A stretch of DNA of 64,000 nucleotides from assembly GCA_025917655.1 (NCBI GenBank), contig CP084611.1, forward strand, positions 930,001 to 994,000, read 5' to 3'. The notes beneath the pieces were generated by a model. It did no database searches. It had not been told where the DNA came from and worked only from the letters and a program-made list of their open reading frames with translations. The position numbers and the translations under genes are program-made. Shown here piece by piece: positions 2,376 to 33,194 of the stretch; within the stretch, counting starts at the first letter, position 1, and each line of letters opens with the position of its first letter. Source of the stretch: Chlorella sorokiniana (Eukaryota; Chlorophyta; Trebouxiophyceae; Chlorellales; Chlorellaceae).

Positions 2376-2397
2376 GTCAACTCCCCAGCGCGCTGCG

Positions 2398-3115: not shown

Positions 3116-3580
3116 TCAGCTGGCGATGTCCAACGCCAGGCGAAGCCCTTCCTCCAGCTGCTCCCAGCTGCCCGAGCTCAAGGTGACCACTGTCGCATCA
3201 AACACCTCCTTCTGCTGCCCAGGAGTCAGCTCGCGCCAGCGGCGGACGACATCCTGACGGGCAGAAAGTACGATTCAGTCAGCAGGAGCCACACGGCACA
3301 CCCATCGAATATGATGATCCCAGGCGTGTGTCACATTCAGTGATGTTGCAGCGCCGCACACCCGCAACGTCTCGCCACCCTTGCTTGCAAGCACGAGCAG
3401 CTGCAGGGGGCGCAGCATGCTGTTGACAGTGAGGTTGCTGGCTGCGGACACGACTGCTGCCCTCGCATCTTCCACTTTGCGCTCTGTGATCCCAGCCGCA
3501 AGGCTGGACAGGGCAGATGACACTGCTTGGCGGCTGGGCAGCGGCTGGGCGGCATGGACACCCGTGCCACCTGGCTGCTG

Positions 3581-3611
<31 letters not shown>

Positions 3612-6624: not shown

Positions 6625-6795
6625 TCACCCAGGCTGCTCGCGCGTTCGCTTCCACCTCGACCAGGCCGAGATGCGATCCGCTCAGAGACAGGCTAGTAAT
6701 CAGCGAGGGGCGACCGAACATTGAAGCGTGTTGCAGAACCAAGAACGATTAAACGAGGACGCTGCAGAGCGCTGCTGCCCTGTCATCTGCCCCAG

Positions 6796-6999: not shown

Positions 7000-9900
7000 T
7001 CACAGCGACCATCTCAGCGCCTGCTCCAGCTTGTCCCACGCAGCCTCGCTGCAGGGCACCACCGCCGCGTCGAAAATCTCATGCTGCTTGCTCAGCGGGT
7101 AGGCACGCCAGTTGCGCACAATGTCCTGCGGGGCGGCACGGGGGCAGGGTGAGTGCTGCATGGGTGGGTCTTCAGCAGAATGTGCCATGGAGGCACGCTG
7201 GCAATGCTGGTCTTGTTGACACAGTGGCCAGCAGCAACCGCTTGCCGTGCACAATTCAAAGAAACGGAGAAAGGTTCAATAGCGACAAGCATGCGGGTCA
7301 TCTGGCAGCTGGCATGCGGTTTCAGGTGCCGGGCTCACCCACAGGACCTGGCCGCCCTTGCCGCCGATCGCCAGCAGCTTCAGCGGGCGCAGCATGCTCT
7401 CCGCACTCTCCGTGTCTGCCGCCGCAAACGCCTCCAGCGCCTGCTGCACCTTGCGCTGTGCCACCTGGGTAGCAAGCTCTGTCAAGGCCGGTGGGGCCGC
7501 GGCGGCCCCGCCGCCGCTGCCCGCCGACGCCAGCTGGCCGCCGCTGCCGCCTGAGGCGGCAGCTTCGGACCCTCCTGGTGCGATCGACGGCTCCTGCTTT
7601 GCTGCAGGTGGCTGATGTAGCTGTCCGTGGGACATTTGCGACTGCGGCTGCGGCAGCGAGGGGGCCTCCTGCTTCAAGGCCGTCACACCGCCACCCTCGC
7701 CAGCGCCGCCAGCCAGCCCCGTCTCTTTGCCGGGGCCGCTGCTGCGGCATCCGCCAGCATGTCCAAGAGATCCAGCTGAGAGCCACCCTCAGGCGAGGAG
7801 CGTGGCACGGCCCCAGGCTGCGCGGGCGGCAACGGCGCTGCTGCGCGAGCGGGCTTGCGCCGGTGCGTCGGCTTGGGGGCGGCGCTGTCGGGGAGCCGCC
7901 GATGGCCGCAGCGCCGGCTGGCTGCTGCTGCGGCTGTGGCGGAGGGGGAGGGGGCAGCAGGGCGGCCGCCTCCTCGGCAACTACTTGCACATACGGCTCC
8001 ACCTCCCCGCCTGCAAACCGAAGAGCAGGGGGAGCATGGGTGGGAGGGATGGCACCGCACTGCAGGGAGGCGCAGCCAGCGGCTGCTGCCACAAATCTGC
8101 AAATCAAACTCTGACCGGGTCCTGGTCGGCATGAACGGGACCTCTTCAGGCGGGAATGGGGGTGTGCAGGGCGGGGGGGGCGCGCGCGTGCGTGTGCACA
8201 GATGTGCATCAGCGGCAGTGCACCTGCCAGCTGGCGCAGGTGCGGCGCCCAGCGCACGTAGAATGCCAGTGGGTGGTTGAGCGGCGGTGGCGGCGGGCCG
8301 GGCGGCGCCGCATCGCCCGCCGTGCTGCCCTGCCGCTCCAGCCCCGGGGGCGGCGCCGTGCCAGTGCCAGCGGCTGCACCTGCGGCCTCCTGCCCTTGCT
8401 GCTGCTGCTGCTGTTCGTGTTGCTGCTGCTGCTGAGGGGGCGGGGCCTCGGGCAGCCTGCCGCCAAGCGCCAGCCAGCCCCACACAGCCAGCAGGTCACG
8501 CGCAACCTCTGCCTGCTCCGGGGTGGGCAGGCCCTCCACACGCAGCTGCAGAGGGGGCGGGGCGAGCGGCGAGAGTTGGGGGAGATGAAGAGGCACAGGG
8601 CACGCACAAACTCCCACACCCTGCCCTGGATCCCGAATGCAGAGCGTGCGGCTCACACACTGCCAGGCCAGTGCCCGGCTAGAGGCTCACCGGCACAATC
8701 TGACCATTGCCGTCCCTGCAGGCTGCAGCCGCCGTCCAGCTGTTGTCGCGCTCCGAAAAGACAACCCCCACCCGGCGCCGCCCAGCCCCGTCTGCTCCCG
8801 GCGACGCCCTCACAACAGCCGCGCCCCGCGGCGGCGCCAACGGCGGGCGCTTGCGCTTGCGCTCGGGTGGCGTTGCGCCCTGCTGCGCCTGCTGCGCCAG
8901 CTGCGCCTGCTCCTGGCTGTTGCGGCGCTCAAGCGGCCGGGCGTGGCGAGCGGCGGCACCCCGCTGGCCGGGCAGGGGGTCCTGAGGGACCACCGCCGCC
9001 AAGAAGAGCACCATCTGCTGGGTGGTGTGAACCTGCCTGCGGGGATGAAAGCACGGGGCCGGCGGGGCAGCGGGGCGGAGGGAGCATGAGCTATGCATGG
9101 TGGCTGCCTCATACATGACAGTAACAGGCAAAGTTATGTGGTGCATGCAGTGAGGTGACCTTGCAAACAGCAGGAAGCAGCAGCCAGAGGGATCCCACCT
9201 CAGCTGCTCCAGCAGCTCCTCGTCGCCCTGGTACCCCGCCCCCAGATTCAGCTCAGCTTCCGCCGGCGCCATCTCGACGTCCCGCGGCTGCGCCCGCCCC
9301 GCCGCAGCTGTGGCGGCGCTGCCCGGTAGGCTGCCCGACCCCGCGCTGCCCAGCATGGCGGCGGCGGCAGCCTGCATGGCGGCGACCTCGTCCAGCAGCG
9401 CGGTGTCGCTGGCTGTGGGGGCGGCGGGGCCGGGTCTTCCACCTCCTCCCCCGCTCCAGGGCCAGCAGCTCCCGCAGGCTCAGCTGCACAGAGCGGGAGC
9501 GGGGGCGGCAAAGCCGTACAATACAGATCATGGTGGCTGCACTGCCCAGGTCGCAAACTTGCCGCCATGCATCCGCGAGGTGCCACACAGGCGCATCCCC
9601 ACAGGCCAGCCAGGCGAAGCACGAGCCAGGGTTGCCGAAAAGACGCGTGCTGCACTGGCGACGCCGCCCCTGACCTGGCGGCCGCGCGGCGGCGCTCAGC
9701 GGCCGCCTGCTCCGCCAGCTGCTGCTGCCACACCGCCACGAGGTCTGCCGCGACGGCGGCGCGCTGCCGGTCCAGCCGCCCAAACCAGGCCTTGCGGCAG
9801 CCGGCGCACTTGGCCTGCATCAATGTCCAGCCCACCGCGTCAAACCAACACCAGACGACCGCAGTTGGCAGGGTCTGCCACACCGCAGCACTGCCACAGC

Positions 9901-12900
9901 CCCCGCTAGTGTACTCCACCCGCCACCCGTAACCCTTGCCAGCCAAACAACGAATGGGGCCCTCCAGGCACTCACGTAGACGCCCCACTTGTGGCCGGTC
10001 CCAGGCGGCGGCGGGTGAGCCCCCACCACCTCGCCGCCCTCTGGCAGCTGCCGCGCGAGGGCCAGCGCCGCGCCGACGCTGGCGGTGCGCCGAGCCTCAA
10101 ACGCCAGCTCCGCCGCCTCCTCCTCCGCCATCATGCCGGAGTCCTGCTGGGCGGCGAGCCAGCGGGTGCGAGTGGTGGTGGGTGTGAGGGTGGGATGGGG
10201 CCGGGAAGGGGAGGGAGGACGCAGTGTGGCTCACCACTTGCAAAAGCAGCGTGGCTGTGCTGCTGGGATGGCGAGGCGGCGTTTCGATTAGGCAGCAGCA
10301 GGAGGAGAGCAGCAGCCGTGGCGGCTGGAGGGCTGGCGGTGGCCCGCGCATGCATGAGCAGCTCGTCACGGGCCTGCGCCCCGCCCCACGCACCAGGTCC
10401 GAGGCAGCGCCATCGCCGTCCTCCCCTCCCTCCGAGTCGCTGCCTGCCGCATCCTGCACCCGGGCGCCTCCCGCCGCAGCAGCGAGGCCAGGCGGCCGCC
10501 GGCGCCGCGCCGCTTGGAGCGCCCTGCGCCGCTGGGCCTGCATCACAGGTGCAAGGAAACGATGGAGGTGAGGTGGTCTGTGGGCGCGCGTGTGTGTGTG
10601 TGTGTGTGTGCGTGGGTGGGTGGGGGTGGGTGGGGGGGTGGGGGTTGAAAGCGGCAGGACCAGCTGGGGTAGCGAGGCAGAAAAAGCATCCGCGCTCTGC
10701 TGGAGAAGAAGGCCGACTTGCACGCGACTGGCAGCTCGCGAGGGGTGGCATGACAGCCAGGGCCACAGCACCACATGGAACCAAGCGCCCTTGTCTCCGC
10801 ACCCGTCCAGGCTCTGCACGCTGACCGCGCTGAGCGCCACGTCGCCCTCCGCCTCGTCGTCCCACGCCTCGTCCCAGCCCGCGCTGAAGTCGTCCCGGGG
10901 CGGCGCCGCCTGGCCGTGGGAGCCCTTGCGCTTCTTGCTGGCAGCCAGGCCCGCGGCCGCGGCTGCGCTGCGCGGAGCACTCAAAGGCTCGCCGGGCAGC
11001 TCTGGCAGGGGGCTCGCCCGCTGCGCGTGCCGGGACGGGGGGGCGCAGGCTCAAGTGCAGCTTGGTGGAGCCAGGGAGGCAGTCTGGGAGGCGGCTCGAC
11101 AGTAGCCGCATGCCAACCGCTGGCTGGGTGCCCCCACAACGCAGCCCGGCAGCGAGCACGCCTCACCCGCCCACCGCGCGCACGGTGCAGTGCAGTCGCT
11201 GCGCGGAGCAGCGGTCTGGCAGCAGGCAGAGCAGGAGGCGGCTGCCGACACGCGCCCCCAGCGCCTCCAGCACCGCTCGCAGCCCCGCCGGCTGCAGCTG
11301 CATGCCGTCGTCGGTGTGGAGCAGCTGCACGTCCCAGCAAGGGCCCGTCCCCTGCTCGCCCGCCTCGGAGCCAGCTGCAGGCGCCGCACCGCTGGCACCC
11401 CGTCGCCCGCGGTGGCGGGGGCGGAGGGCGGCGCGCGCGTCATGCGCAGCACGCGCGGCACGCCCAGCTCCGCCGCCTCGCCCAACACCTGGTCCACCCA
11501 GAACCAATACACCCCGACTGGAAAACACGAAACGCAGCGGGGGAGGGGCATGGCGGCAGGATCAAAGGAGGGGCTGAGAGCAGGGCTCGGGCACAGTGGG
11601 TAGCCAGGACAGAGCACTGACCTGTACCCTGCCCTATGGCTCAACAGCAAGCCGCCCTTCCCCGCATTGCAAGTGATAAAGTGCACTGCTGCGCCTCACA
11701 GGGCAGGTAGACACGCGGCTTGGGGCCGTTGGAGGGGTCCAGGTTGCCCTTGGTCAGCTCCTTGAGCCACGCGCGGCTAGTGGCCTGGAAGCGCTGCGGC
11801 AGGGCGGGCGCGGGGGCAGGGAGGAGGCGGGGGGGCAGGAAGAGGGAGGGTGGTGAAGGGTGCAGAGAGAGCTGCAAGCGACGTTGCTGGTCAAGGTTGA
11901 AGAACGGCAGCGACAGCCTGGGCGCTCGGTGGGCGGGTGCAGGGATGGGATCGAGCGGCGCGCGGGAGGGGCAGCAGGCTGCGGCCGACGCTCACCGCCC
12001 GCCCGCGATGGCTGCCCGTGCTGGCCGCGCTGCCCGGCCGGCCCGCTGCAGCGCCGCGCCCCTGCCGGACGACGCCCGGCGCGGCTGCTGCTGCGGGGGG
12101 CGCGCTGCTGCAGCCGCTGCTGCTGCAACGCCAGCATGGCGCCCTGCACCTCCTTCCAAGCTTCCTGCACGACAGGCAGGAAGCACAGCATACGCCCAAT
12201 CAGGCAGCACAAAGCAGTCGGGCTCATCAACTTCCAGGCATAAGATTGCATGAGGAGCTGCCGTGCCTCCTCGTTGTCGAGCTGACAGGCAGACTTGCCA
12301 TGTCTGGGAGCCAGGTGGGAGTAAGCGGCATCAGCCGGCCCAGCTGGGCCAGCGAGCATGCGCTGCACACAGCCATGTGAGCGGGCGGCCCATACCCTGC
12401 GGCGGCAAGCAACATAGGAGTTGGGCAGGAGCCAGCGGCGTCAGGGGGTTGGAAGGGCCGCGAGCGGCAGGGCGCCGCGCTGCGAGCCGCCGCCGCGTGC
12501 AGGGAGGCATGCAGGTGAGCGATGGCATGCCCGCCCGACTGCCTGCTCGGGGTGATGGCATGGAGGTGAATCGGCGCTCACCTGCATGCGTCGCAGCTGG
12601 CCGGCGTCCACTCGCTTGGCGCACATGTCACACGTCAGCTGCCCGCTGGCCTCGGCCGCCGGCGCCCCGCCCTCCGCCTGCCGCCGCTCCAGGAGCTGCA
12701 GGTACCGCCGGAGGTGGGCCAGCAGCTGATCCCACAGCGCGCCGCTGTCAGGGAAGACCCTGGTGCGGCGTAGCGCCTCCAGCTCCGACAGGCGGGCACG
12801 CAGCGCGGCGGGCTCGGTGGGCTGGTCAAAGAAGAGCTGGCGCAGCGCCGGCAGGCCCAGCTGCTGCGGCTGCTGGCGCGCTGGCGGCGAGGGCGCCGCT

Positions 12901-13380
12901 GCGCTGGGCGGGGCCTGCGGCGGCCGTGCAGCCGGGCGCCGCTTGGTGCAGCCGTGTGGGCGGGCGGCTTGGGCGGGCCCGGCATGGTTGGCACCCCTGG
13001 CTGCCCGTTTGCTGCTGCTGGCGCTGCTGCTGGCATGGTCCCTCCCATGGAAGGAGGTGGGGAGTGCGTGGCATGGCTGCTGCAGCTCCCGCCCTTGCAT
13101 TCTCAGTGCTGGCTGCGGAAGGCAGGCCTGCAGCTGATGCCCGGGGTGGGATGGCGTCCAACACCGGCCTGGAGCTGGGTGGCTGTGCTGCTGCCAGACG
13201 CGTGGAGGCAGCCGCCAGGCCGTTGCTAGGTTGGCCAGGAGGGCCTTCAGGGGCCACCGCGGCAGTCGAGGCAGGCGCTCCTCCTGCTGTTGCCCCCAGG
13301 GCTGGGACTTGCTCAGGCACGCGCAGTGCGCCTGGCGCGCCGGCGCTCTCCGCGCCTGCCGGCGCACCAGCCGGCTCCAT
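7000..13380 (-). CDS. Gene E: large protein with degenerate AP2-like repeats and family tail
   Basis: The start at 13380 (MEPAGAPAGAESAGAP) is the first Met with sustained coding composition and is uncertain. Visible parts in order: a Leu-rich segment with LPALRQLFFDQP (about 12850) and a CxxC pair, TCDMCAKRVDAG (about 12620); WLKELTKGNLDPSNGPKPRV (11770) and WDVQLLHTDDG with LRAVLEALGARVGSRLLL (11330-11220), perhaps B3-like; an acidic low-complexity stretch (10980-10800); AP2-like repeat a, with HKWGVYV, WFGRLDRQRAAVAADLVAVW and ELNLGAGYQGDEELLEQLR (10010-9200); FLAAVVPQDP (9010); AP2-like repeat b, with RRVGVVFSERDNSWTAA, then QAEVARDLLAVWGWLALGG, a Gln insertion and HPLAFYVRWAPHLRQL (8780-8210); GGEVEPYVQVV (8005); and the tail, MLRPLKLLAIGGKGGQVLW, intron, DIVRNWRAYPLSKQHEIFDA, stop at 7000. 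Two frame changes near the start fit missing bases. DNA binding is inferred from the AP2 likeness; several AP2 consensus residues are lost. Confidence 0.55.
10590..10650. repeat. GT repeat followed by G-rich tract in a gene E intron
   Basis: A run of GT units passes into GTGGGTGGGGGTGGG-type sequence on the plus strand. Four or more G-runs in close order could fold as a G-quadruplex. It lies between coding pieces of gene E. Confidence 0.8.
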
Positions 13381-14217
13381 TGGGTGGGCAAGCGCGGCTG
13401 GCAGACGCTGGGAGCCTGAGTCGTTGCCTGTAAAGAGGAAGGCCGAGGAGGCGGGTGCCGAGCAGGGTGGCAGGCCGCGGTGGGAGAGTCAGCACCTGCA
13501 ACAACCCTTGAACAGGTGTCAGAAAGACAAATGAGGCTGCATCAGGAGCGAAAGATCCCACACCCGGGGCCCCCTTTGTCCCCTGCCTCCAACCTGCTCA
13601 GCTGCTGCCACTGACGAAGGAAGGCCGCTCACAGCGCTCTGCAGAGCATTTGGCGGCGGGAAACCACTAAATGAAGGAGGGCGCCCGTCGCGCCGCAGCG
13701 TCATCCGTGTTCTCGTGCTGCGCCCCATGCAGACACCCAATGTCCTGCACCAATTCTGGAAAAAGTTGTCTGGCAACATAGACTATGCATGTTACTGCAA
13801 AACAGCACAAATACGTGGAAGTAGCGCGGTCAATAGGCGCAGGACCCCTCCTTATAATCCCCGCTGTTGCGTTGTCTGGCGTGGCGGCGCCCGATCGTCT
13901 GTGGGTGTTGCAAAGTTGGGAGATGTTGCGGTGTTGGCCTGTTGCTTACGCAACAGCAGCCGATCAGCTGCAGTGTGGAGGGCATCCACGGGCATTGCAA
14001 ACGCCCAGGCCCATCCGGTGCCATGCTCAAGCCGCTGTCCTGCTGGGAACGGCGGGAGGAGGGCCCTTGCATGCCGCCATGACAGGGCGATTTGTCGGTT
14101 TTGCGTATCGTGTCGCCGTGAAGTGTCTTCCAAAGTCCCACGTGATTCTTGCAAACAGGCTCCGGCTGTTGGATATCGGCAACCTTTCGAGAGTTTCAGT
14201 GCGCTCTCCCACGCAGC
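13381..14217. promoter_or_regulatory. Divergent intergenic region between gene E and the PHD gene
   Basis: About 840 bases separate two divergent starts. No TATA box or clear motif was recognised. Open frames here lack family likeness. The base composition is less biased than in the flanking coding parts. Confidence 0.4.
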
Positions 14218-16210
14218 ATGGACGCAGCCTCAGTCGGGCACGTGCCAGATGCGACAGTCGCGGTCCACGGCAGCCAGTCAGGCCCGCCGGACACCACCCC
14301 GCCACCCTTGCGCAACGCCGTGCCGCCGCGGAGTCGCGCGACGAGCTGGTGGCGGTGCTGGGGGACCTGGCATGCAGCGACCTCAACATCCTCAGGAAGG
14401 TACTGCGGCTGCACAAGACGAGGATGGCAGACCAGCCTCCTTCGCCCTCAGAGGCGGGCTTTGCTCAGCACCTGTACGTCGCGCGCCTTGAGCTGCTCAT
14501 CCGCCTTCGAGAGCAGGAGGAAGAGCAGCGGCAGCAGCAGCCAGCGCCGCAAGCAGCGGAGGTGAAGCAAGAGCAGATCGTTGAAGTGACCAGCGACAAT
14601 GAGCCTGCGGACCCTCCTGGCAAACTTGATAGCGGAGCGTGCTCGCAGCTTGCCGCGGCGCTGCCGCCTGCTGGGCAAGAGCAGCTTGAACGGCCCAGCG
14701 GCAGCAGCGACAGCGTCGAAGCCACCGTGCTGGCGGCACAGCACCCGAAAGAGGCGCTGCTTACCGCCCTGTTGGTGCGGTACACGCTGCGTCTGCGCGG
14801 TGGGGCCACCGCGAGCCTCAAAAAAATGCTGGGCACTCACCATCTGGCCGACCAGCCCGTGCGCCTGGTCGGGGCCGGCGGCGCTGTGATGGGCAGCGGG
14901 CGCCTGGATGCAGGCGGCGGCATCCTGTGCGCATGCGAGCCCTGCTGCGGGCGCCGGTTCAGGCTGCGAGCCTTCTTGGATCACTGCGGGGCGGCTGGGC
15001 TGGAGCCGGGCGATGCACTTGTGCTACAAGGTTGGCTGCTTCTGGCTGCTGGCTGTTGGCTGCTGCTGGGAGGGAGGCTCCCGTGCCTCGGCATGCAACG
15101 CAGCCGACTGCGGCATACTGCGTGCATGCGTGCAGCTGTGCACGAGCCAGCGTCCCATCTTGCGTGGCCTGTGCAGAGACCGGACGCAGCTTGAGCCAGC
15201 AGCTGGCCCTGGTGAACAGCCCGCACCTGGCCTCCGCAGCGGCAGCCGCCGGCGTCGATCTGAACAGCGACGTCTGCCGGGCTTGCGGGGAAGTGGGCAC
15301 ACTGCTGTGCTGTGACAGCTGCACCAACGCTTACCACGAGGGCTGCACACAACTGAAGGCGAAACCACAGGTGACCGGGCGGCAGCATGCTGACACGGCT
15401 CTCTGTTATGAAGGGCGGGCAAGCTGTGCCTGGCTTGCTCCGGTCTGCACAGTTCGTTTTCCGGCCCTCTGTAGAGCGAATGGCTGTGTCCAGAATGCGT
15501 GGAGGAGCAGCAGGAGGAAGCTCGCAAGCGCCCAAAGATGGAGGTTGCTGCCCCCTCTGCGCAAGGCAGCCAGCATTTGCGGAAGCCGCTTGTGGCGTCG
15601 GTGGCCCCCGGAGGCACTGCTGGCGGGATCAAGCTGCGATTGATCATAAAGAGGGAGATCAAGCAAGATCCTGGGCCTGTCGAGAAGAGCAGCAGAGACG
15701 ATGCCGCAGCCGGCTTCACAGGGGCAGACCAGCCCTTGAACATGGAGAGCACCGCTTCTCAGCCCGCCCCCTTGCCAAGCCCTGCACGCGAGCAGCAAGC
15801 GCGCCAGCTGGCACCAGGCAGGCCAGGCGGAAGCGAGGTGGAGCCGCAGGAGCAGCAGCAGGGGGCGCAGGCTCCCTTGGCCACCGAGAGCGCTGGCCCC
15901 GGCCTGCAGAGCCGCTTCTTCATGCTGGTGCTTGGGCGGCTGAGGACGGCAGGGCTGCCGCCAGACCGCGTGCAGGTGAGCCCAGCCCACAGGCATCGGC
16001 GCCTGGCCGGCCTGCACACCCCTTGCTGTGCGGTGCCAGCGCCTTGACCGCAAATCGATTGTTGCTGCCCTGCCGCTCCTGTGCCAGGCATTCATGCGGC
16101 GCTATGCGCGCCTTGCGCCGGCAGACCGGCAGCGGGCGGCGGAACAGCTGCAAGCACACAGCACGGCGGCAGAGGTGTGCACCTCGGTAGCGGCCGTCTT
16201 GCATCTATGA
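14218..16210 (+). CDS. PHD-finger protein with upstream Jas/SAND-like Cys motif
   Basis: A likely nuclear reader of histone tails. Four exons fit: 14218-15030, 15177-15370, 15475-15975 and 16088-16210, giving about 543 residues after adding one C in the CCCC run at 14297-14300. Exon 1 carries a Gln/Glu-rich part and GGILCACEPCCGRRFRLRAF with FLDHCGAAGLEPGDALVLQ. That Cys/His arrangement is like the short motif that precedes PHD fingers in plant IDM1-type proteins. Exon 2 has the PHD finger, VCRACGEVGTLLCCDSC and AYHEGC, completed in exon 3 by SEWLCPECVEEQ, so all eight zinc ligands are present. Exon 3 continues with KLRLIIKREIKQDPG, a sumoylation-like site. Exon 4 has RRYARLAPADRQRAAEQL. No acetyltransferase domain is seen, unlike IDM1. 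The start depends on the frame correction. Confidence 0.75.
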
Positions 16211-17328
16211 TGAATTGTCAATCATGGGCATCGCTGCAACCATGCAACTGCATTGCTGAGTTCAGAGGGTTGCTGGAAGGGACGGTCTGCTGAAGCTACT
16301 GTGGATCCGGCCCCGCAAAACTTGAATACCTCGTCATCCTTAATCCACCGAGCTCCATTGCTTCCATGCTACTGCGCTGGGCCGTGCCTCAAGGTCCTCT
16401 CTTGCCTCGCCGTGAGCTGCCAGCGGGGCTTTGGTGGGATCCAGCAGCTTGCTTACCCCACACAGCAGCTGCCGGCCGGGGATGGGCGCGTGGGGCGGTG
16501 ATGGCGCTTCCACGCCAACAGCCCCAATACCACCCGCTGAGTGTGCATAGGCAACGCCAGCAGCCGGCCCTGTCGAACATGCACAAAAAGAATGGTGGGG
16601 CGACGCTCGAGGCCAAACTTTGGCGGAGAGTGGCGCAGGGGCGGAGGCGGGGGTGACAGCGCACCCCGCCTCTGCAGCCTTTCACACTGTTCGCTTGTTC
16701 GCTTAATGAGCATTTTCGAGGGAAATAAAATGAAAATTACGAAAGCAGTCCCCGCATAACCCTCACCCTGCTTTTTGGCCTCTTGTCCGTCTGCTAAGAG
16801 GCTGATAATTGGCTCTTGTGGTTTCGAAGAGCCAAGATGTTGGGGTCCATTGCTGGAAGTTGAGCCTTCCATGGTTGCCTGTCGCCAGTTCACTGGTAAT
16901 CGTTATCGACAGTGATGTTCAAAGCAATTAAGGTTGTTTGACAACGCTCAAGGGGGTCAACAGCTCAAGCGTGGCACGCAGTCCCCCGCTGGACCCTCTT
17001 TGCATGGCGCCATGTGGCAGCGGCTGCAAGCAGCGCTCTCGACCCATGGAGAAGATGGCAAGGGAAAGCCTGCTATCAAGTTGAGCTCAGGCTGCCTTCG
17101 TTATGCAAAGTTCAGGTTGCAATAGAACATGACAGCGCCGCAGCCGCTAGACGTAGTGCTGTGGCCGCGCTGCAGCGCTCAGCGTGGCGGCGGGAGCAAG
17201 GTCGGTTGATTTGTCACGCCATGCATGTCAGCTTACGCAAGCCAAAAATTTAATCCTTTCACAATGCACGACACCGCTTTGTGGACCGCATCCAACCACG
17301 ATCATTTCCCGCAGCAGTGAGGGCGACT
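16211..17328. other. Intergenic region, about 1.1 kb
   Basis: It holds the 3' end of the PHD gene and the upstream region of the next gene. No coding part, RNA gene or repeat was recognised. It is less GC-rich than its flanks. Confidence 0.5.
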
Positions 17329-19787: not shown

Positions 19788-19999
19788 TGGATGATTATGG
19801 CTCGATCGCCGATGTGTGTGCTTGTTGAGGAGCACTCACAGTGGAAGATTGTGCACGAGATGCGTGCGGCCATGCTATGACGGCGGCGCCCTTCACTGCA
19901 TAACCCTAAGTAAGTACCTGAAGGATGCGATCACGCAGCCTATAGAAGCAGTTTGTCCAATTCCGACTCCTCTTGTGGCAGAGGCAAGCAAAGCGCAAC

Positions 20000-21353: not shown

Positions 21354-21477
21354 GCAGCATGAGTGCAGGCAGCATCACATGCATACCAAAATTGTAGCGG
21401 GGTTCTGCAAACATAATGTCGACCAAGCATGATACTTTGGACGAAAAGGTGGCGCTCCGGCCAGGCACAGCTGCCCC

Positions 21478-22573
21478 TCACTCGTCCTTTTTCGCCATGC
21501 GGTCCTTGCTGGCGCCAGCCGCCTCCCCTGCCTCGTCGCTCCCGGCTTCTTTCCTCCCCGCAGCCTGCTCTTTCTTCTCTAAGATGTACTCCTTGGTGAG
21601 GTACACGATGAGTGCGCCGGACACGATGCCCACCAACTCCAGCCCACGCTCAAACCACTGCGCAGCAGCAGCAGCACGGAGGATTCAGCAGCCGCCTTGT
21701 GAAGCCAAACATGAGTTGTGAAAATGTATGGATGGCAGCATGCTGTGCTCAGCAGGACGCGCTGCGACAGGCTGCCGCCCGCGGTGCACACCTCCGCAAT
21801 GGAGATGACCGTGGCGGCGCTGAGGCCGAGGCGGCCGGCAAAATGCTTGGCCAGCATCTGAGGGTACTGCCAGCCCGCCCCGCGCCCCATCATCTTCATG
21901 TCAACGTGATACATGTAGAAGATGATGATGACCTGTCGTGGAGAGGAGGGCAGATGGAACAGGTGACCCGTCGCTACAAAACGCGAACACAACAAACAAC
22001 AGGAAGAGCAGAACTCTGCAACACAAAAGCATTGCGTGCCATGCTTGCTGCCCACCTCGGAGAGACACAGCATGGACAGCAGGGAGTAGAGCATGATGGC
22101 CCACAGCTTTTCTCGGTTGGCCTTGCCAAAGCCAAAGGCCCAGGCGCGCAGCAGGAAGAGGGCCACGCCGGCATAAAAGATGTACTCTGTGCTGATCGTC
22201 AGCGGATCCTCTGCACAGTCATGCAGATAATACAGCTTCTCGGATTTAACGCGCGCGTGCGGAAGAGCCAAGCACAGCGTGTGCAGGCGAGCGAGCAGGC
22301 CTGGCGGTGGTGGCGGCAGCGCACCGCCGGTCAGAAAGGGCACCGAGTGCCACAGCGTGCGGACGCAGATGTAAGCCAACTGCACCAGTGCTGAGAGCTT
22401 GATGCCCCGCCGCATCACCGCCAGCCGCTTGTAGCCTGCAGGCAAAGAAGTGGTGAGCGCCGATCCGTGCTGCCCAGCGGCGCGGGTTCTTCAGCATGTA
22501 GAAGCGGCTTACGATCTTCAATTATCATGCGATAGCTCCAGTCTGCGCCCTCCACGCCAGAAGGCCTCTCCAT
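21478..22573 (-). CDS. Small multi-pass membrane protein, family not assigned
   Basis: I could not name this protein. Joined exons give about 215 residues beginning MERPSGVEGADWSYR. Hydrophobic segments are ALVQLAYICVRTLWHSV, YIFYAGVALFLLRAWAF, LWAIMLYSLLSMLCL, VIIIFYMY and LVGIVSGALIVYL, so four or five membrane passes. Between them lie TGEDPLTISTEY and a loop with DMKMMGRGAGWQYPQMLAKH. The tail is highly charged and ends KDRMAKKDE, close to but not an ER-retrieval KDEL. The pattern of an Arg before an aromatic pair, followed by Glu and Tyr, recalls RTA1-like proteins faintly, which I would not rely on. Intron junctions agree in phase. An in-frame Met upstream at 22642 is an alternative start. 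Confidence 0.6.
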
Positions 22574-22871
22574 CTTGATGGCTGTGAGTGTCCACTCTCT
22601 TCTGCGTTTGATACGGGGTGGAAACGTCGTCGCAGTGCGCATTCAAACCTATGGTTCCTCCTTATTCCATCGGGAGGCATGTACTGCTGGCGTCCTGAAA
22701 CAAAACGAATGAAGTGAATTCATGGCTCGTCGCCAGGAAGAGCAGTCTGCGCATTGTTCACAGGACTTCGTTTAGGGCTTCGCAAGCTGGGTCCGAAACA
22801 GCAGCCCTTGTCCGCAGTCTCGTCGAGCATCCAAGTTCGCTACAGGCCTTCGATAACCCTCCAAAGCCGCA
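22574..22871. promoter_or_regulatory. Divergent spacer between membrane protein and trigger factor
   Basis: Only about 300 bases separate the two start codons, so both promoters must lie here or overlap the first exons. No TATA box was seen. Confidence 0.5.
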
Positions 22872-25800
22872 ATGCAGCTTGTACTAGGCCCCACACACGC
22901 CGTGGTGGCATTCACCGCCGAACCCGTCAGGGCCGCAAACCGTGCAGCACAGGTTTGTGGGGCTACAGCATGCAATCATCCTTTTTCGATGTCTCTGATA
23001 TAATTCGGTCGCGGCAATCGCCGCAGATATGCATGCATGGGCTTATCCGCTTGCCGCCGGCGTGCCGTCCGCTGCCTGGGAAGCGTTGGACGAGCACCTT
23101 GCGTTCATTGCTCTCCCATCTGCTCTGCAGGTCACCAGGGCCCTCGCCCCGCGCAATGCCAAGCCGACAGTGCATCGCCCACAGCCCCGCGGCCGTGCTG
23201 CCCGGGCCGGCGTCGTCGCCGCCGCGGCTCCGCCTGCAGCAGAGGTTGCGGTGCGGGAGGAGAACCTGGAAGGCTCGGCCACGCGCCTGCACATCACCGT
23301 GCCCGCCCCCATGTGCCAGGCAGCCTACAAGAAGATCATGGCAGACCTGCGCAAGGGCACCACCGTGGACGGCTTCCGCAAGGGCAAGGTGCAGGGGGTG
23401 CAGCCCAGGCCATTGCGACTGGTGAACTCCTGTCCCTGGCGATGCCAGCTGCGCCCCCACGTGTCGCAGCCCGCAGGCTGCACGCTTGCAGCAACCGGAG
23501 GGCAGACAGCTTGTGCGACCGGCTGTGAGTGACCCTTGCCAAGCTCTCTGGCTTCTCCACTGACAGCGCACATCCAGGCGATTGACGCCCGGTGCTCCTC
23601 GCCGCCGATGCCCCTGACCCCTGCGCAGGCCCCAGACGCCGCCCTGCTGGCGCATGTGGGCGGCCAGGGCCGCGTGGTTGCCTCGGCGCTGGCTGAGCTT
23701 CTGGAGCCGGCCCTGGCGGCGGCCATGCGTCCGTACGAGGGCGTGGCGGTGCCCGACTCCGAGCGCATCGAGCAGGAGGCGGAGGAGCTGGAGGCGGCCT
23801 TCAGGTGGGTGCCTGGGGGAGGGCGGGCAGCGCAGGGCACTGGCGGTTTCACACGTACAGGCGCGCCCTTGCTTACTGCCTGCGTGTCGTCCTGCTGGGG
23901 AACCTGCTCCTCCAGCAGAGCGGAGCGGCGTCTGGGCCGGCCCAGGAGCACCCTCCTCAATGTCCATCCAAACTTCCCCGGTAGCCTGGATGCCGGCCTG
24001 TCCTTCTCAGTGGTGTTTGACGCTGTGCCGGAGTTGCGCTGGAAGCTGCCCTACCGCGACCTGGCCGTGAGCGTGGAGGCGGCCGGCGACGAGTCGGGCG
24101 ACGCAGCGGCGGCGGAGGAGCAGCTGCGTCAGCTGCGCAAGGGCAAGGCGGAGCTGCGGGTGGTGGCGGACCGCGGCCTGCAGGTGGGGCGCACTGGCGG
24201 AGGGCGGTGGCACATGCGTGTGCCAGTGAAACGTAGCAGGGAATGGGCTCGTCGGCCAGGCAGCTCCTAAGGCTGCTGTGCTGTCTGCTGCCGCAACACC
24301 TCCTGCCTTCCTCCCGCCCAATAACCTATTCCGTCCCCTTTTGCTGCGGCATCTAATTTCGGTTCCCGCCCGCCCTGACTTTTGTCCCCCTCTGCATGCC
24401 CCTCTTCTCCGCCCTGCAGCCCGGCGACCTTGCCATCGTGGACTTCAGCGCCAAGCGCGCCGACGACGGCGAGGAGCTGCCGTATGCCGCCCGCACCTCC
24501 ATGCGGCTGGACACCGACGACGCAGACAGCACCTTCCTGCCCGGTGAGCGGCGGCGCTGGCCGGGGCAGGGAAGGAACACCCTTAATTTGGGGAACCCCC
24601 AGCCTCTGATGCTCACCCTCGCCGCCTGTTGCATCTTCTTGCGCGAGTGGACTGTTTGCTTGCCTGGCTCGCACCGCTGGGGCCCACTTACCCAGGCGGT
24701 AACAAGGGAGGGGTGGGTCACCTTCGCAGCACAATGCACCCCCACCCCCGCCGTGCTGGGCAGGGATTGTGGCTATCCTGGAGGGCATGCGGCCGGGCGA
24801 GGAGAAGGAGACTGCCATGACCTTCCCCACAGACGGTGAGCCCCCCGCCAACCCCCTCCCCCGCCCTTGCTCTCCTGCTGCATCTGCCGCCCCGCTGTTG
24901 CGCTCTTGCAGGCCCTCCTGGCTGGAGCGCTGGGGGCCGCAACAACGATGGAGACGTTGAGGGAGCATTGCTGTGCAGAGATGCCAGCAACCTTGGCGCC
25001 AATCCCCCGCCCCCGCCCCCACACCCCGGTGCAGAGACCTTCCAGCCTGCCACACTGCGTGGCGCGGAGGTGGTGGCACGGGTGAAGATGGTGGAGCTGT
25101 TCGCCTTTGAACTGCCCGAGGTGTGGGTGGGTGGGTGGGGTGCGCGCGGCAGCGCCCACCACAGGGAAGGGAGGGAGGCGCGCTCGTTATGAAGTTGCAG
25201 AGAAGGTGGCAACTGCCTGCGCCCACACAACGTTTGGAGCGAGACGGCCCTAGCTGTACTGTGGTGGCCGCCCACGCTGCCAGCGCTGCGACCGATCCAC
25301 GCTCCTTGCATCCACGCTCCTTGTCCCCTTCCCACCCTCCTCCCCTCCAGCTCACCGATGAGTGGGCGGCCTCGGTGATGCCTGGCAGCGACGTGGCGGG
25401 ACTGCGGCAGCAGCTGCTGGCCGCCAAGCGCTCCGAGCGCGAGGCGCAGCAGCGTGAGCGGGTAGCGGACGCCTTCATGGCGGCGGTGGGGCAGGCGGTG
25501 GACTGCGACATCCCTGACTCGCTGCTGGCGGAGCTGGGGGCGCAACAGTACAGGTGCGCGGCGCCGCGGGAAGCTGAGGGGCAGGGCGATGGGGCAGCAG
25601 GGCAGGGGCGCAGTGCATGGCCGCGTGGCTGGATACCGGCGCTTTCAAGTGCAGCCTACCAGCACCCAAGTGCACCCACGCGTGCCCGCCCGCTCACTTA
25701 CACCCACATGCCCGCACGTCAAGGCCCAGTGCGCCTGGCAGCGTCTCACCAGCATCTGCCCACGCCTGCTTGTTGCCCTGCCACCCCCGCAGCGTGACCC

Positions 25801-26533
25801 TGAACCGCCTGCTGTCCGAGGGGCAGCTCAACTACGAGACGGTGCAGCAGCTGGCCACCCCGAGATGGTGAGACGGGTGCTGCCTGTATGGCTGCCACGG
25901 GCAGCCGGACCTGGGGGCAGGCTCCCGCCCTGCATGCATGCTGAACCACTGAGGATGCATGCCCGGGCGTGCGCGCCCATCCCGTTCTCCGCTTCCCGGC
26001 TTCCCTTTCCCCCTGCCGCACGCGGCGTGCCACTGCGCCCTCGCCACCGGCTCCGCCGCCCGCGCAGGCCCAGCAGTATGTGTCGAGCCGGCGAGAGGAG
26101 CTGCTGCAGCTGCAGCGAGCGCTGCTGGGGATGGAGGACATTGCGAGGCGCGAGGGGCTGCAGCCCAGCGAGACCGAGATCGAGGTGGGCGGCTCTGCCA
26201 GGAGCAGTCATGAGGGCAGCGGCGCCGGCCGGCACCTGCCAGCGCCTGATCAATAGTTTGGCCCAGCTGGGCGCAGCTGGGTGTGGGTCACCGGCCTGGC
26301 ATCCCTGCCGCTGCCGCTGAGAGACACCTGACCAGATCCCCCACCGCCCCACTTCCCATCATCCCCAGGCCGAGTTCCGCACTGCCACCAGCGACTTTGC
26401 AAAGTACGGGCAGGAGTATGATGCGGAGCGGCTGCGGGAACAGGTGTACGAAACCCTGCAAGCAGACAAGGTCATGGCCTGGCTCATTGAGAACTGCCAA
26501 GTCACCACAGTGGTGCCACCAGCGGCAGCATGA
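22872..26533 (+). CDS. TIG: Plastid trigger factor, TIG type
   Basis: A ribosome-associated chaperone and peptidyl-prolyl isomerase of bacterial origin, acting on nascent chains in the chloroplast. Eleven exons fit: 22872-22952, 23131-23388, 23629-23804, 23985-24183, 24420-24543, 24764-24835, 25035-25120, 25351-25553, 25793-25867, 26068-26184 and 26369-26533, about 518 residues. Exon 1 and the start of exon 2 form an Arg/Ala-rich transit peptide. The ribosome-binding domain has YKKIMADLRKGTTVDGFRKG, the usual GFRxGK signature. The isomerase domain includes GDLAIVDFSAKRADDGEE, FLPGIVAILEGMRPGEEKE and MTFPTDETFQPATLRG. The C-terminal domain has LTDEWAASVMPGSDVAGLR and a helical end. Summed exons lack one base; it belongs in the CCCC run 25858-25861, restoring the reading LATPEM before the splice. 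Confidence 0.92.
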
Positions 26534-27992
26534 AGTTGAAGGGCAGCCCTGCAGCCCCGCGAAGTGAGCACTTCAGCATGGCATTGCGCTGTTCTCCAGA
26601 TATCAACACCACATCTAGTTTTCCGGCTGTCTGCTCTCATCATTTTGCTCTCCTTTGCTTCGCTGTGTGCGGCTGCCTTCTGTGCCTCCAATGCCTGATG
26701 CGGGCACAGCAGGAACAAGGAACCGCACAGAGATGCTTCTGTAAGACTGGGTTGCCGTTTAGGTGATGTGCAAGTGCAGGCATCCCGGGGGCTGTGCACA
26801 GCCTAACAGCGCAGATTTAAGTCTCTTCTCATGGGGGCCAACCACTGCCGCCGTCCAGCAATAGTTGCGGTTCAAAGACGAGCCGTTTGCGCTACAGCGA
26901 TAAAGCATTCACATATGACGTGGATAAATCATGCGTCACGCAGACAAAGCGCAATGAAGTTATTCAACCCCGGCTATCGAGGTTGGCGTACCTCAAACCT
27001 CCACGACTTGCACCGGGTTGGCTGCTCTTGGAACGCATTGACACACCTCCTTGGGCATGTTAGAAGCCTGGGAGGGCCTCAGCGCACACCCGCTGCATCT
27101 TGCCATCCTGGCACACGGTTCCGTCGCACCCTTGCATTGTTCCTCGCGTCTTCTGTACCTTGACGTGTCGCAATTCAAGCCTTCGCAACTTGCAAGGCAT
27201 TCCTGACAGCCAACAGAGAAGCAAGCCATCCTGGTTAGCGCGGTGCACGGCGGGCGGCTGTGTTAGCGGGCGCCAGAGCATCTTGAAAGAGTTTCCAACA
27301 TCGTGGTCTGCCTCGCGGACTGGTTGAGGGAGCTTGTGGGCGGCGGCCCAACCTTCCAGGTTTGTGTCGCTGTTGATTTGAGTCCAAGAACGGCTTCCCC
27401 GCTCCAGTTGGAAATATGCAATGCTTCATGCAAGTGCCGGGGCAGCTAGGGAGCTTGCCAAGGGCGATCCATTCTCGGAGCGGGTTGGGGATGTGCCTTT
27501 TGCTCCTTGGCTTCTGGGGCCAGTGAAGAGGTGTCCGGGTGTGTTGACACGCCGGGTGCCCGCTGGAAGAACAGGGCGGAGGCCCTGGGGTTTCAACGGC
27601 GGCTGCCGTGGCACCATGGCGCCTCAACGCTATCCACGCACCCAGCAGTGTGGCGGCGCTCCTCTCTCTGCTTGCAACCCCTGCCATTGAAGCACAGGAT
27701 GCAAGCTATGCGCTGCCTGCGCACCTTTCCTGTCCTTTGCAGGCTTGAACCTTGGAGGGGTTGCATGCCCTTTGCTTCCCTCCGGCCACCCCTCATCCGG
27801 ACGCCCAGCACCTGCACGCGGGCCACTGCCCACCCGCTACAACAATGAACGGCCTTGGTGCGGTGCTGCTGTATCCTGGTGCTGCGTAAATGGCGGCCAG
27901 AGGCGCTGGTTGCAGTGAAATGCAGCAAGTCCATGACAGCCTTGGTCCGACGGTCGCCTAACTGCCGACTTGCATCTTTCCGTCCCCACGCA
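26534..27992. other. Intergenic region upstream of gene H
   Basis: About 1.4 kb with the trigger factor 3' end and the presumed promoter and 5' exon of gene H. Open frames on both strands show no family likeness. An upstream coding exon of gene H may be hidden here. Confidence 0.4.
26740..26744 (+). terminator. Putative TGTAA poly(A) signal of trigger factor
   Basis: TGTAA lies about 205 bases after the stop codon. TGTAA is the usual signal in many chlorophyte algae; assignment here is by position only. Confidence 0.4.
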
Positions 27993-30900
27993 GAACTGAC
28001 TATCGAGGTGCCCGCGCCCGACATGGCCCTGCTGAAACAGGACGAAGAGGAAGCACTGGACAGCAAGTTCTCTGCGGCGGCGCGCAGGCCGGCGGCGGAG
28101 GAGGCCGAGCCTGTGGCGCCCTTGTCTGGCCAGGGCAGCGACGCCCCCGCACCCAGCACCCAGGCCGACCCCACCCCTGAAGCCGCAGCCGCGCTGGCGT
28201 CTGCGCCTACTGCCGCGTCCGCTGTGGCTGCCCACCTGGGCCTGGCGGGAGTGGAGGCTGCTCTGGCCGGGAGGGCGAGCCGGAGCACCCGCCACTGGGG
28301 CCCCGGCGGCGCCCACGCCCGCCGTGGCGCCGCCGTCGGGCGCGGCGGGCACCCCGCGGGGGCGACGGCGAGGAGGCCGACGAGCTCGCCGCCAACCTGC
28401 TGTCCAACATGGCGGCCTGGCAGAGCGAGCTGGATGCGTTCCAGGCGGCGCTGCGGCACTGCATGGAGACGCGCCGCCCCAGGCGCCGCGGGCTCCCCCT
28501 CCACCGTGGACGAGTCGGGCGGGGGCCGCGCGTCTGCAGCACAGCGGGCCCAAGGGCGTCACCGGCTTCCGCGGCGTCACGCAACACAAGTAGGTGGCTC
28601 CGAGTGTTGTGTATGTGTCGGGGGAAGGGCGCGTGTGGTTGTGGGTTGTGGGTGGCGTCGGCGGTTTCGGCAGTGTGGAAGGGGGAGGTGAGGGCACGTG
28701 TGGCCACGCAGGGAGCTGCTTCCATGTTTTCCCAGCGACCATTAAGCTGACACGTGAACACGCGTGAGGTCACCGTCCTGCTCATGCGCCCACCTGTGCC
28801 GGCTGTGTTCCCGCCCGTACCGCAGGCGCACCAAGCGGTACGAGGCCAACGTGTGGATGGACCACAAGCAGATGTACCTGGGTGAGCACACCATGCCGCT
28901 GCTGCCCTGCACCTGCCCGCGGCCATCTTGTCACAAGATGAGGGTGCTGAACTCCCCACCACAAGGCACTCCACCTCGGACGGCCGGGCCCCCTGTGGCA
29001 CTCCTTTTGCATGCCGCGTGAAAACCAGCCAATCATGCCACCACGTATGTGTGGGGTATCCCCCACACCCCCACCCACACTCACCCCCAAACCACACCCG
29101 CGTGCGCAGGCGCGTTTGATGTGCCCGAGCAGGCTGCCCACGCGCACGACATCGGCGCGCTGTGCAGCGGCAAGGCGCGTGCCGAGGCCCTCAACTTCCC
29201 CCTCACCGACTACGAGTCGCTGCTGCCCATGCTGCACACCCTGCCGCACGTGAGCGCGTTGTGTGCTGTATTCGTTTTTGGGTGGGGTGGTGGGGGGCCT
29301 GCAGGGCGGCGGCGGAAAACTTGGGGCCCCACGCTCCTGAAGCCTGCAAACCGCCCCACCCTCTGCACAGCTTCGCTGGTTGCGGGGTTGGTATGGGGCG
29401 GCATGGGCAGGGCGGCCATGAGATGGCTGGCCAGGCAGCGGGCAAGCGGGGCCGCTGCTGACTGGTGCTGCTGACAGGCTCGGCGAGGCCTGCCACCTGG
29501 GCGTGCAGCTGCCCGGTTGATCACTGCTGCAGCTTGCATCACCGGCTGCTCCCTCTGGCCCGCACCCACTTCTGCAGGCTCAGGTGGTGGGTGCACTGCG
29601 CAGCTACGGGCGCCTGCCCACCGCGCGGCCCTCGGGCGGCGTCAGCTCCGGCCGCCTCTACAGCTCTGCCTCGGCACGCGCCTCGTCGGCACGCCGCAGC
29701 CGCGACGCCGACAGCGAGGACAGCGAGGAGGAGGGGACGGTGGTGGCGCGCGGCCGCGGCCGCGCCGCGCACGCAAGCCCTCTGCGAGCGGCAGCCGCAG
29801 CGCGCCTGCGCTGCCGCCGCTGCCGCCCCGCTGGCGGCGCAGGCTCGGCTGCTGCCTCCGCCCAAGCACGAGGCCGTGGAGGTGGCCGCGGGGTGGCAGG
29901 GCGCAGCCGCCGCTGCGGCCAGCGCGCCAGAGGACTCTGGGGCAACGGGTGGCACAGACTCCCAGCCCCTTGCCTCCGATGCTCAGCAGGCCGACCTGCA
30001 GGCGCTGGAGGCTGCTCTGATGGGCAGCGCGCTGGCCTCGGTCCTTGCGGGGGCGACGAGCCGGAGCCCGCGGAGGTGCCGCTGCCGCGCCCGCCGCCGC
30101 GGCCCAGCAGCGGCGCCTCCCTGGCGGTGTTTGAGGGCGCGCTGTGCCAGCTCATGGCGCGGTCCCACACGCTGTGCCGCCCGGCGCGGAGGAGGACGGC
30201 GCTGTGCCGCGCCCGCTGCACAGCGGGCCCAAGGGCCAGAGCGGGTTCAAGGGGGTCACCCTCTACAAGTGAGGCACCTCGACGCGCCAGATATGATGAT
30301 GTCCCAGTCCTGCCTCACCCCTCTGCGCGTGCCCACAGCCGCAGCGCGTGTGTGCCGCCCCCAGCCCGCAAGGCCCCGCCCGCCTCGAGCACCTTCCCCT
30401 GTTCCATGTACCGCAGGCGGTGCCAGCGGTACAACGCCCACATCTGGCTGGGCAAGCAGACGCACATCGGTGAGCCCAAGCGGCGGCAGCGCTGCCACCC
30501 CGCCTCAAGCCCTTGGGGCAGCTTTGTTGCGCCAAGCTTGTCCAGCCACTCGCTCCCCTCCCTGGCCCCTTGCGTTGCAAGCGCGCCCCTCCCTACCCTG
30601 CCTCCTCTGTCGCCGTCCGCCCCTGCAGGCACCTTCCACACGGCGGCGCAGGCTGCTGTGGCGCATGACGTGATGGAGCTGTGGCGCAACCCCGAGGCCC
30701 AAGGCCTCAACTTTGCGGCGACGTCGTACGAGGAGCTGCTGCCGCTGCTGCGCCAGCTGTCAGAGGCGAGCGGGGCGTGGGGAACGGGGCAGGGCTGTGG
30801 GGCTTTGAGGGGCAGAAGCGCTGTCGGCGGGGAGGGCCCTGCAGCTGGCCCCTCTGCCGCAGGCGCCGCACTGGCAGGGTGTCTTTCTTATGCTCATGGA

Positions 30901-33194
30901 ACTAGCAGCAGAGTTTTCAAGTTCCTTACAAGTTCCTTACTCTGGTCCTGCAGGCCGACGCGCTCAATGCTCTGCGCAACTACAGCCGTTCGCCAAGCTC
31001 CGCCGCCGCCGCCGGCACCGTTGGCGGCGGCTACAGCAGCCGGCCCCGGCCGCCTGCATCACGCGGCGCGCCACCTGCTGCTGCCACTGTCAAGCCGGCA
31101 CCGTCGGCTGCAGCGCCGACGGCGCCCTCCCTGCGTCGGCGGCAGCGCAAGCCGCAGCCCAGCGGCGGCACCAGCGCGGGGCAGCGCAGCGACGACAGCA
31201 GTGGGGGCGCCATGCCGCCTGCACGGGTCAGCGCCGGCTCCCGAATGTGGTACATGCTTGAGCAGGTGGGCCCCTCTATTCCCCCCCCCTGTCCCCGCCA
31301 AGTCGCAGGCGGTGCACATGGCTCTGGCTGGAGCGGGGCTGGGTTACTGTGCAGCCCCTCACCGCATCCTGCTCGGCAGCAGGACGCCGTTTGCCCTCCC
31401 TCCACCCCCTGTCTCCCACCCTCGCCCTCCCCAACCTCCCGCAACGTGCACTACCTGTGCAGGAGAAGAGCGCGGACCACTCTGGAGACGACTTGATGGA
31501 AGAGGAGGGGAAGGGGGCGACTCCGACTTTGCGCCGGAAGAGGCCGCCGAGGACGACCCGCAGCAGGTGGGGCTGCGCCTTCCTGCGCCGTTGTTTGCGT
31601 CGTGTGGACGAGCCAGGCGTGGCGGGTTGCTTTGCAACGGTCACCATGTTGTTCAAAGGTGTAAGGTCCACGATACTGGTGTTACGGAAGCACTGACTCG
31701 CCATGTGGCATTTTAACGCACGGCCCTCCCCCCCAGCCGCCCGCCAAGCGCCGCCGCTCGGAGTCGCCCGGCGGTGACCCCTGGCCTTCCACCCTCACCC
31801 CACCCCCAGCGTGGCGTCAGCCCTGGCCACCCCCTTCCTCCTGACCAACAGGTGGTGGGGTGCGCCCGCCACGGCCCGGCAGCAGCCACCGTTGGGGCCT
31901 GGCGGTGAGGCATCGGGTGTGGGTGGGCTGCAGTGCATCCTAGCAAGCTGTGCCCTTCGCGCCAGCCACCTTGCGTCTCGGTCTTGCCGCATCGTTTCTG
32001 CGCCCCAGCGTCGCGCCCTCCACAGCCCGCGTCCCCCAACCCTTCCCCCAAACAGATCTCGGTGCGCGGCCAGGCAGCCTGGTTCGGGCGGCTGGACCGG
32101 CAGCGGGCTGCAGTTGCAGCGGACCTTGCCCTCATCTGGCGCCGCTGTCTGGCGGCTGCGGCAGGCGAAGAGGTGAGCCTTGTAGGTTTCATTATTTTGG
32201 TGGGTTGGGCCGCCACAGGCTGGCGCCTGCCCCAGCAGTCGCATGTGCCCCGCCCTGCTGCTGCTCGTCCTCTGCTGCCTGGCCAGCGCTGCTGTTGCTC
32301 GCGCCGGTGCGCTGCGCGGGCTCCAGGGCCCCCCACCCATCCGTCCATTCCACACCTGCCTGCTGCCGCCGCCCGCATCCGCAGCCCGATGCCAAGGACG
32401 CGGGCGCCGCCTTCAACGTGCCGTCTGCTGGTTACGAGGAGGATGCCGCCCTCATGGACCAGCTCAGGTGGGTGGGCGGATGGGGTGTATGAAAGCCGGG
32501 GGCGGGCTGTGAATGTGAGTGTGTGTGGTGGGGTTAGGGGGCGGGGTGAGCGGTGCGGAGGCCGTACTGCGCAGGTGGCGGCTTGCATGCTGGGTGCGCT
32601 GCTCCACCCTCCTCTGCCCGCTGGCACCCTCCCCGCAGGCGCATCCGCTCCGCCCCCAGCTGAGTCAGTTCCTGGCGGCAGTGGTGCCCCAAGACCCGCC
32701 TGCCGCCCCGGCACCGCAGCGGCGGCCGCGGCCGCCTCGGCCCTCGTCAACGTGCCGGGCGGCAGGGCGCTGCGGCGCTGGCGCCGCCGCCGGTGGCCCC
32801 CGCGCCGCCGGCGCCTTCGCTGCTGCTAGGGGCCCGCAAGCGCAAGCAGCAGGCGCTGCTGGAGGAGGCGCGGGCGGCCAAGCAGCAGGGCGACGGCGGC
32901 GCCGCCGCCGGAGGGGCGCCCGCGGCGGCCACCGGCCCGCTGGCCCAGGCTGCGGCTGCGATGGAGGCGGCCGACACAGGCGACTCGGCTTCCATGCTGG
33001 GTGCGCTGCGCCAGCTGGCGACGGCGGGCGTGGGCGGGCGGCTGCTGCAGGAGGTGGTGGCGGGGTGGGAGGGCTACCCACTCATGCAGCAGCAGGACAT
33101 GTTTGGCGCCGTCACACTGCCGGCCCGCAGCGGCGACTGGGACCGGCTGGAGGAGCGGCTGCAGGTGGCACTGGACCTGGCCTCCCTCTTCTAG
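27993..33194 (+). CDS. Gene H: multi-AP2 transcription factor with family tail
   Basis: A likely DNA-binding transcription factor. The first supported exon follows an acceptor at 27992; the true start may be Met 28024 (MALLKQDEEEALD) or an upstream exon. AP2 domain 1 spans three exons: GPKGVTGFRGVTQHK, RTKRYEANVWMDHKQMYLG, and AFDVPEQAAHAHDIGAL with ALNFPLTDYESLLPML (28548-29249). AP2 domain 2 has the same two intron positions and phases: GPKGQSGFKGVTLYK, RCQRYNAHIWLGKQTHIG, and TFHTAAQAAVAHDVMELW with LNFAATSYEELLPLLRQL (30219-30765). A weaker third repeat has WFGRLDRQRAAVAADLALIW and AFNVPSAGYEEDAALMDQL (32056-32470). The end has FLAAVVPQDP, basic stretches (GARKRKQQ), MLGALRQLATAGVGGRLL and WDRLEERLQVALDLAS, with stop at 33192-33194. 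At least six frame changes fit missing C or G bases. Confidence 0.85.

Follow-up and report, generated by a model that had tools for sequence, protein, structure and literature searches.

A predicted helical module closes AP2 and apparently non-AP2 proteins encoded in a Chlorella genome

Algal transcription factors are usually found through their DNA-binding domain. Within the AP2 family, the ANT lineage carries a 10-residue insertion in its first repeat. Members of this lineage are also described, in the available part of PMC6361745, as having a conserved 25-residue linker between two AP2 domains. WRINKLED1 (WRI1; PDB 7wq5) is a plant transcription factor of the same family. Among green algae, Auxenochlorella protothecoides is credited with 12 AP2/ERF proteins, two of them with three and four of them with two AP2 domains (PMC7811268, in its available part); these resemble the case presented here in having more than one AP2 repeat per protein. 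They are set apart from it by description only, as no conserved C-terminal domain is mentioned in that part of the article, the term "C-terminal" occurring 0 times in its main text. None of the titles and abstract openings listed by full-text searches of PMC on AP2 proteins of green algae and plants names a tail of the kind reported below, which is not a claim of absence from print. Here, we analyze a window of 64,000 nucleotides (C1:930001-994000 of a 38.8-Mb genome in 15 contigs; G+C content 60-74% in 2-kb steps) in which three genes, called B, E and H, end in a common module, the tail. The intron-rich genes and plant-type AP2 domains would be consistent with a green alga.

The C-terminal tails of B, E and H are one homologous module of about 90 residues; they align over their full length, 22 columns being invariant. 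Their identity is 46% between E and B, 39-40% between E and H and 38% between H and B. When the whole genome is searched in six frames, the tail of H retrieves E with an expectation value (E) of 7.0e-6 and B at 1.3e-5, and the tail of E retrieves H at 1.1e-10. In all three genes no more than 5 residues separate the stop codon from the conserved LxxAL or LRWSL end. The genes and their tails are located as follows.

About 28.0-33.2 kb, + strand: gene H
32916-33191, + strand: tail of H, a single exon, predicted five-helix bundle; stop codon 33192-33194
From above 10 kb down to 7000, - strand: gene E
7339-7500, - strand: tail of E, first exon part, up to GGQVLW
7003-7125, - strand: tail of E, second exon, after a phase-0 intron at 7126-7338; stop codon 7000-7002
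3119-6624, - strand: gene B, from an ATG at 6624 to the tail, its extent judged by eye
3362-3514, - strand: tail of B, first exon part, up to GGETLR
3119-3253, - strand: tail of B, second exon, after a phase-0 intron at 3254-3361; stop codon just below

The alignment and the mutual matches bear out the first-pass annotation, which had seen the three genes close in one module at the stop codon; B, however, lies outside the 7000-33194 interval in which it had been placed. The tail motifs given there hold in outline but not in every letter: B reads LVLASKGG rather than LAxxGxGG, E reads KQHEIFDA rather than QQxxxFDA, and E ends in LRWSL.

The module extends well beyond this locus. Searches with the three tails and one copy from contig C3, together with a 10-row alignment (A3) and a profile applied to the window plus 16 loci, show that 8 genes, distributed over contigs C1, C3, C9 and C11, carry no fewer than 10 copies, all counts from genome searches being lower bounds by the search tool's own statement. 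The genes are E, B, H, B' (C1:928 kb, an upstream relative of B) and those at C3:2549 kb, C11:539 kb, C11:228 kb and C9:1908 kb, and two of them (C3:2549 kb and C11:539 kb) carry two tails each in tandem. All 10 copies align and are positioned at or near a stop codon, the reading having been followed through to the stop in E, B, B', H, the second C11:539 kb copy, C11:228 kb and C9. As expected, no relatives of the tail were found in viral and prokaryote collections. The tails of B and B' are 94% identical whereas all other pairs are at 22-46%, so that the spread of the module, B/B' apart, is old and genome-wide. A simple local spread, as had been suggested earlier, does not fit: the tails of E, B and H share 38-46% with each other and 25-40% with copies on other contigs; that of H is equally near to the C11:228 kb copy (40%), E (39%) and B (38%), and in a shallow tree it groups with a C3 copy (support 0.91, the remaining deep nodes being weak). 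Two candidates were dropped before counting: a match at C6:136103 (E 0.087 with the H query), which the better profile did not list, and what might be an earlier copy within the C9 gene, seen by eye only. Upstream of B', at C1:926.6-927.3 kb (L044 6592-7303, - strand), there is a partial tail (E 1.4e-8 and 0.0013) that stands outside the count.

A phase-0 intron interrupts the tails of B (GGETLR|DVV) and E (GGQVLW|DIV) at one common column, and the corresponding H sequence (GGRLLQEVV) is uninterrupted, just as the first reading had it. The same intron, just after GGxxLx, was also read in B', both C11:539 kb copies, C11:228 kb and C9, and it fits the second C3 copy; it is missing from H and the first C3 copy. 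Since it is thus consistent with 8 of the 10 copies, the intron is probably ancestral, with a probable loss in H.

AlphaFold models the tail as five helices (residues 8-18, 24-36, 41-53, 56-72 and 75-90) with a predicted local distance difference test (pLDDT) score of 85.9 and a predicted template modeling (pTM) score of 0.75. The model was built from window rows only, 5 rows from the 3 genes, and a helical fold is on this basis supported but not proven. A presumed resemblance to the N-terminal domain of TFIIS found no support. Derivation of the tail from a decayed AP2 repeat was considered and rejected, the profile score being 9.0 versus 11.9 for the best shuffle and the model being all-helical.

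Upstream of its tail, H carries two AP2 domains, as had been recognized at the outset:

28546-28587, 28827-28880, 29112-29249 and 29578-29610, + strand: AP2 domain 1 of H, four exon pieces, split codons omitted
30225-30266, 30418-30468, 30631-30765 and 30954-30986, + strand: AP2 domain 2 of H, four exon pieces

In Pfam AP2 the first domain scores 33.0 bits (E 7.4e-8), marginally below the 33.3 cut-off, and the second 18.9 bits (E 0.0019); WRI1, the closest protein in the PDB, is matched at 7.8e-15 and 9.9e-7, respectively. Taken together, these scores place H in the AP2/ERF superfamily. A whole-genome Pfam AP2 search listed 4 places without H, probably because its domains are split over short exons. 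Introns occur at the same three places in both domains, and hence one of them probably arose from the other. The last intron of the second domain (30766-30953, +) has an apparent GC donor (GCGAGC...CTGCAG), whereas the matching intron of the first has GT. The likeness to WRI1 includes both domains and the LNFP-Y-L stretch after the domain; nevertheless, the first H domain has a 10-residue gap in the alignment where the first WRI1 repeat carries its insertion, and about 200 residues separate the two H domains (29610 to 30225, one exon stretch), so that neither hallmark of the ANT lineage, insertion or short linker, is present. H differs from WRI1 further in having an apparently decayed third repeat and the tail; WRI1 was not listed in PDB sequence searches with the tail, the only searches made for a tail in it. 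The closest relative found for the first H domain (56% identity) belongs to an AP2 gene at C1:1590 kb (L065) whose Pfam score of 33.7 bits, unlike that of H, passes the cut-off; no tail was found within the 4 kb examined there.

This putative decayed AP2-like repeat, here X, is shared by E and H, and E has a second, less certain AP2-like stretch and an inverted partial copy:

32053-32172, 32385-32465 and, for the FLAAVV piece, 32660-32698, + strand: X of H
9976-9996 (KWGVY), 9707-9814 (WFGRLDRQ exon), 9201-9257 (Y-x8-QLR) and 8976-9035 (FLAAVV), - strand: X of E
8691-8774, 8435-8545 and 8219-8281, - strand: second AP2-like stretch of E, less certain
2409-2804, + strand: inverted fragment of E with a WFGWLDRQ copy, 91% to 9419-9813

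WFGRLDRQRAAVAADL is identical in E (9787, -) and H (32080, +), and across its 16 codons the two genes show 8 differing sites, all synonymous (counted by eye). The shared segment, FLAAVVPQDP and an intron splitting an Arg codon as AG|G are all present in both genes as first described, and so is the tyrosine motif, but with another spacing: Y-xxx-QLR gives 0 matches, the actual form being Y-x8-QLR. A third WFG-LDRQ copy, overlooked in that description, lies at 2436 (+) inside the inverted fragment. The WFGRLDRQ, Y-x8-QLR and FLAAVV pieces are consecutive in E and H, and their order recurs at C3:2549 kb and C1:804 kb, the latter with no tail seen within the 10 kb examined; a candidate copy at C4:1669611 (E 0.12, no profile match of note) was dropped. 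In profile-profile comparison with the genome's own AP2 set, X scores 39.7 versus 16.0 for the best of 100 column shuffles, and the match takes in the third strand, helix and LNFP-YE-L extension. The score is 24.5 without the H AP2 domains (shuffles up to 15.7) and 26.8 without H entirely (up to 16.7; 60 shuffles each); against WRI1 it is 21.0 (best shuffle 15.0), and a reversed X gives 7.4. That these segments are one decayed AP2 repeat is supported but not proven by such comparisons. X would be a repeat that lost the first strand and the YRG element, and with these gone direct DNA binding by it would be unlikely. The second stretch of E reaches 33.6 against the own AP2 set (shuffles 19.7) but only 10.0, below the shuffles, against WRI1. 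Neither stretch of E has a Pfam match, and E resembles the AP2/ERF superfamily in profile-profile likeness only.

Gene B is of another type. Its exons give no AP2 or decayed-AP2 match at E of 1 or below with the own AP2 and X profiles, and Pfam AP2 is absent from the pieces scanned. The earlier suggestion that some copies lost the DNA-binding consensus would apply to the segments shared by E and H, which behave as a degenerate AP2 repeat against the genome's own AP2 domains, but not to B, where no AP2 sequence is detectable. What B has instead is an unnamed N-terminal module:

4761-4964 and 3973-4172 (span 3973-4964), - strand: cores of the two N-terminal module copies of B

This module, which is not AP2 by profile (10.8 versus 15.8 for the best shuffle), occurs in two copies in each of B and B' and has relatives at C3:2551.7 kb, C1:429 kb and C13:282 kb. 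The C3 relative lies upstream of X and tail, so that about 3.4 kb of one strand hold the module, X and two tails; these are probably one gene, and the region links the B-type to the E/H-type proteins. Overall, AP2 or X is present in 4 of the 8 tail genes (E, H, C3:2549 kb and, weakly, C11:539 kb, with the C-terminal part of X only, E 0.0079) and was not found by the profile run in the other 4 (B, B', C11:228 kb and C9). To call the module the tail of an AP2 factor, as was done at first, is therefore too narrow; it would better be described as common to AP2, decayed-AP2 and apparently non-AP2 proteins. Stretches resembling B3 in B (5480-5700, -) and Tudor in B' (about 1000-1140, -), noted by eye, matched 0 Pfam families, the second also finding nothing in a PDB-sequence search, and were dropped. 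Window positions 1-6795 contain a tandem duplication (1838-2371 versus 6245-6795, 89%; 1-291 versus 5946-6242, 88%), and B' and B have matching starts, MECETIKTPEHIQG and MECETMNTPEHIQG.

Our preferred reading, held tentatively and with somewhat less than even confidence, is that the tail is a compact helical C-terminal domain through which the members of a small family of probable nuclear regulators, scattered over the genome, would dock or pair. A protein-contact domain is the most likely role because the tail is constant, C-terminal, apparently helical, sometimes doubled, and retained whether or not a DNA-binding domain is visible. In H, the two AP2 domains would contact DNA while the C-terminal bundle docks a partner or pairs with family members. 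E, with worn AP2-like repeats only, and B, with none visible, both retain the tail and hence would be partners or competitors that do not bind DNA, or bind it differently, and that meet H-type proteins through the tail in a cross-talk between paralogs. A wider proposal, in which we place slightly less trust, is that a family of algal regulators is defined by this helical domain, which would be new; a constant C-terminal bundle joined to an exchangeable N-terminal part (paired AP2 domains, worn AP2 repeats or a module unrelated to either) might serve as an interaction hub where paralogs that bind DNA come together with those that do not.

What the sequences themselves show is anatomy: homologous tails in a C-terminal position, dispersed over four contigs and sharing an intron, and the AP2 domains of H. 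Several points weigh against the interpretation built on it. In the tail model, 2 of the 5 rows are misaligned over 4 residues, and only 4 of the 5 tail models are alike in confidence, the fifth being poor (pLDDT 59.5). The tail scores 18.1 against X, inside the shuffles (top 18.6), and a distant link between them is neither shown nor excluded. X itself has a Pfam match in 0 of 4 members, a PDB profile search with it returned no AP2 chain, and AlphaFold models the isolated H fragment as one long helix (pLDDT 88.2, pTM 0.56), so that the AP2-like fold that the first-pass annotation had proposed as a check did not appear. Conceivably, then, the WFGRLDRQ, QLR and FLAAVV segments are a separate helical element beside the AP2 domains of H. 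We consider this improbable, given that the profile-profile score stands far above the shuffles for the own AP2 set, if by a smaller margin for WRI1, and that helix, LNxP, YE and leucine extension come in AP2 order, whereas a 44-residue fragment that lacks its first strand, modeled from 3 rows, tests the fold only weakly. It is also unlikely, though less markedly so, that the tail is a known domain diverged beyond recognition and that the novelty lies only in its pairing with AP2. Small bundles of helices readily escape detection, and the comparison covered Pfam, NCBIfam, PHROGs, the PDB and viral models. Yet these libraries bear out the earlier statement that the tail has no named domain: 0 of the 10 copies pass a Pfam cut-off (best E 0.069), no Pfam or NCBIfam family matches more than one copy (NCBIfam best E 0.014, one copy), PHROGs give none, the best PDB profile match (E 0.033) is a designed repeat and PDB-sequence searches yield nothing meaningful, as does Foldseek with the model (best E 1.4 in the PDB, 2.7 among viral models).

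The remaining objections concern coding integrity. B, E and H all show apparent one-base shifts in the assembly; in H, for instance, the reading from QLR to FLAAVV needs one in a C run near 32660. Pieces of E were copied as an inverted fragment, and the tails of B and B' differ by 1 synonymous and 6 other changes, too few to read selection from. E and B could accordingly be decaying pseudogenes, with H the only local working copy and the shared tail a leftover of ancestry. However, the uS5 (RPS2) ribosomal protein gene on C9 (L041, about 4355) is broken in the same manner, into two pieces in different frames within a few bases, which lie 2 residues apart in the solved uS5 chain (7qix). Assembly indel errors are thus a fair explanation for the frame breaks, even if single genes may have decayed. 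Moreover, the 16 identical residues kept by E and H across 8 synonymous changes, with 0 of any other kind, are as would be expected of a selected coding sequence, B and E have both kept intact splice sites at the tail intron, and the same W, L and F columns persist in tails at 22-46% identity. General decay of E and B appears to us, on balance, quite unlikely.

If the tail is indeed the contact domain of a regulator family, it would expose members that have lost or never had a DNA-binding domain and would now be annotated as unknown, and it gives studies of regulator rewiring in single-celled algae something concrete to work on. Alignment A3 can be used to look for further tails, which Pfam, recognizing none of the copies, does not supply. 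Elsewhere in the window, two overlapping open reading frames at 13782-15640 (+) give weak matches to TDBD (19.0 bits, cut-off 23.6) and to the PHD finger (19.8 bits, cut-off 24), a likeness to a plant chromatin reader.

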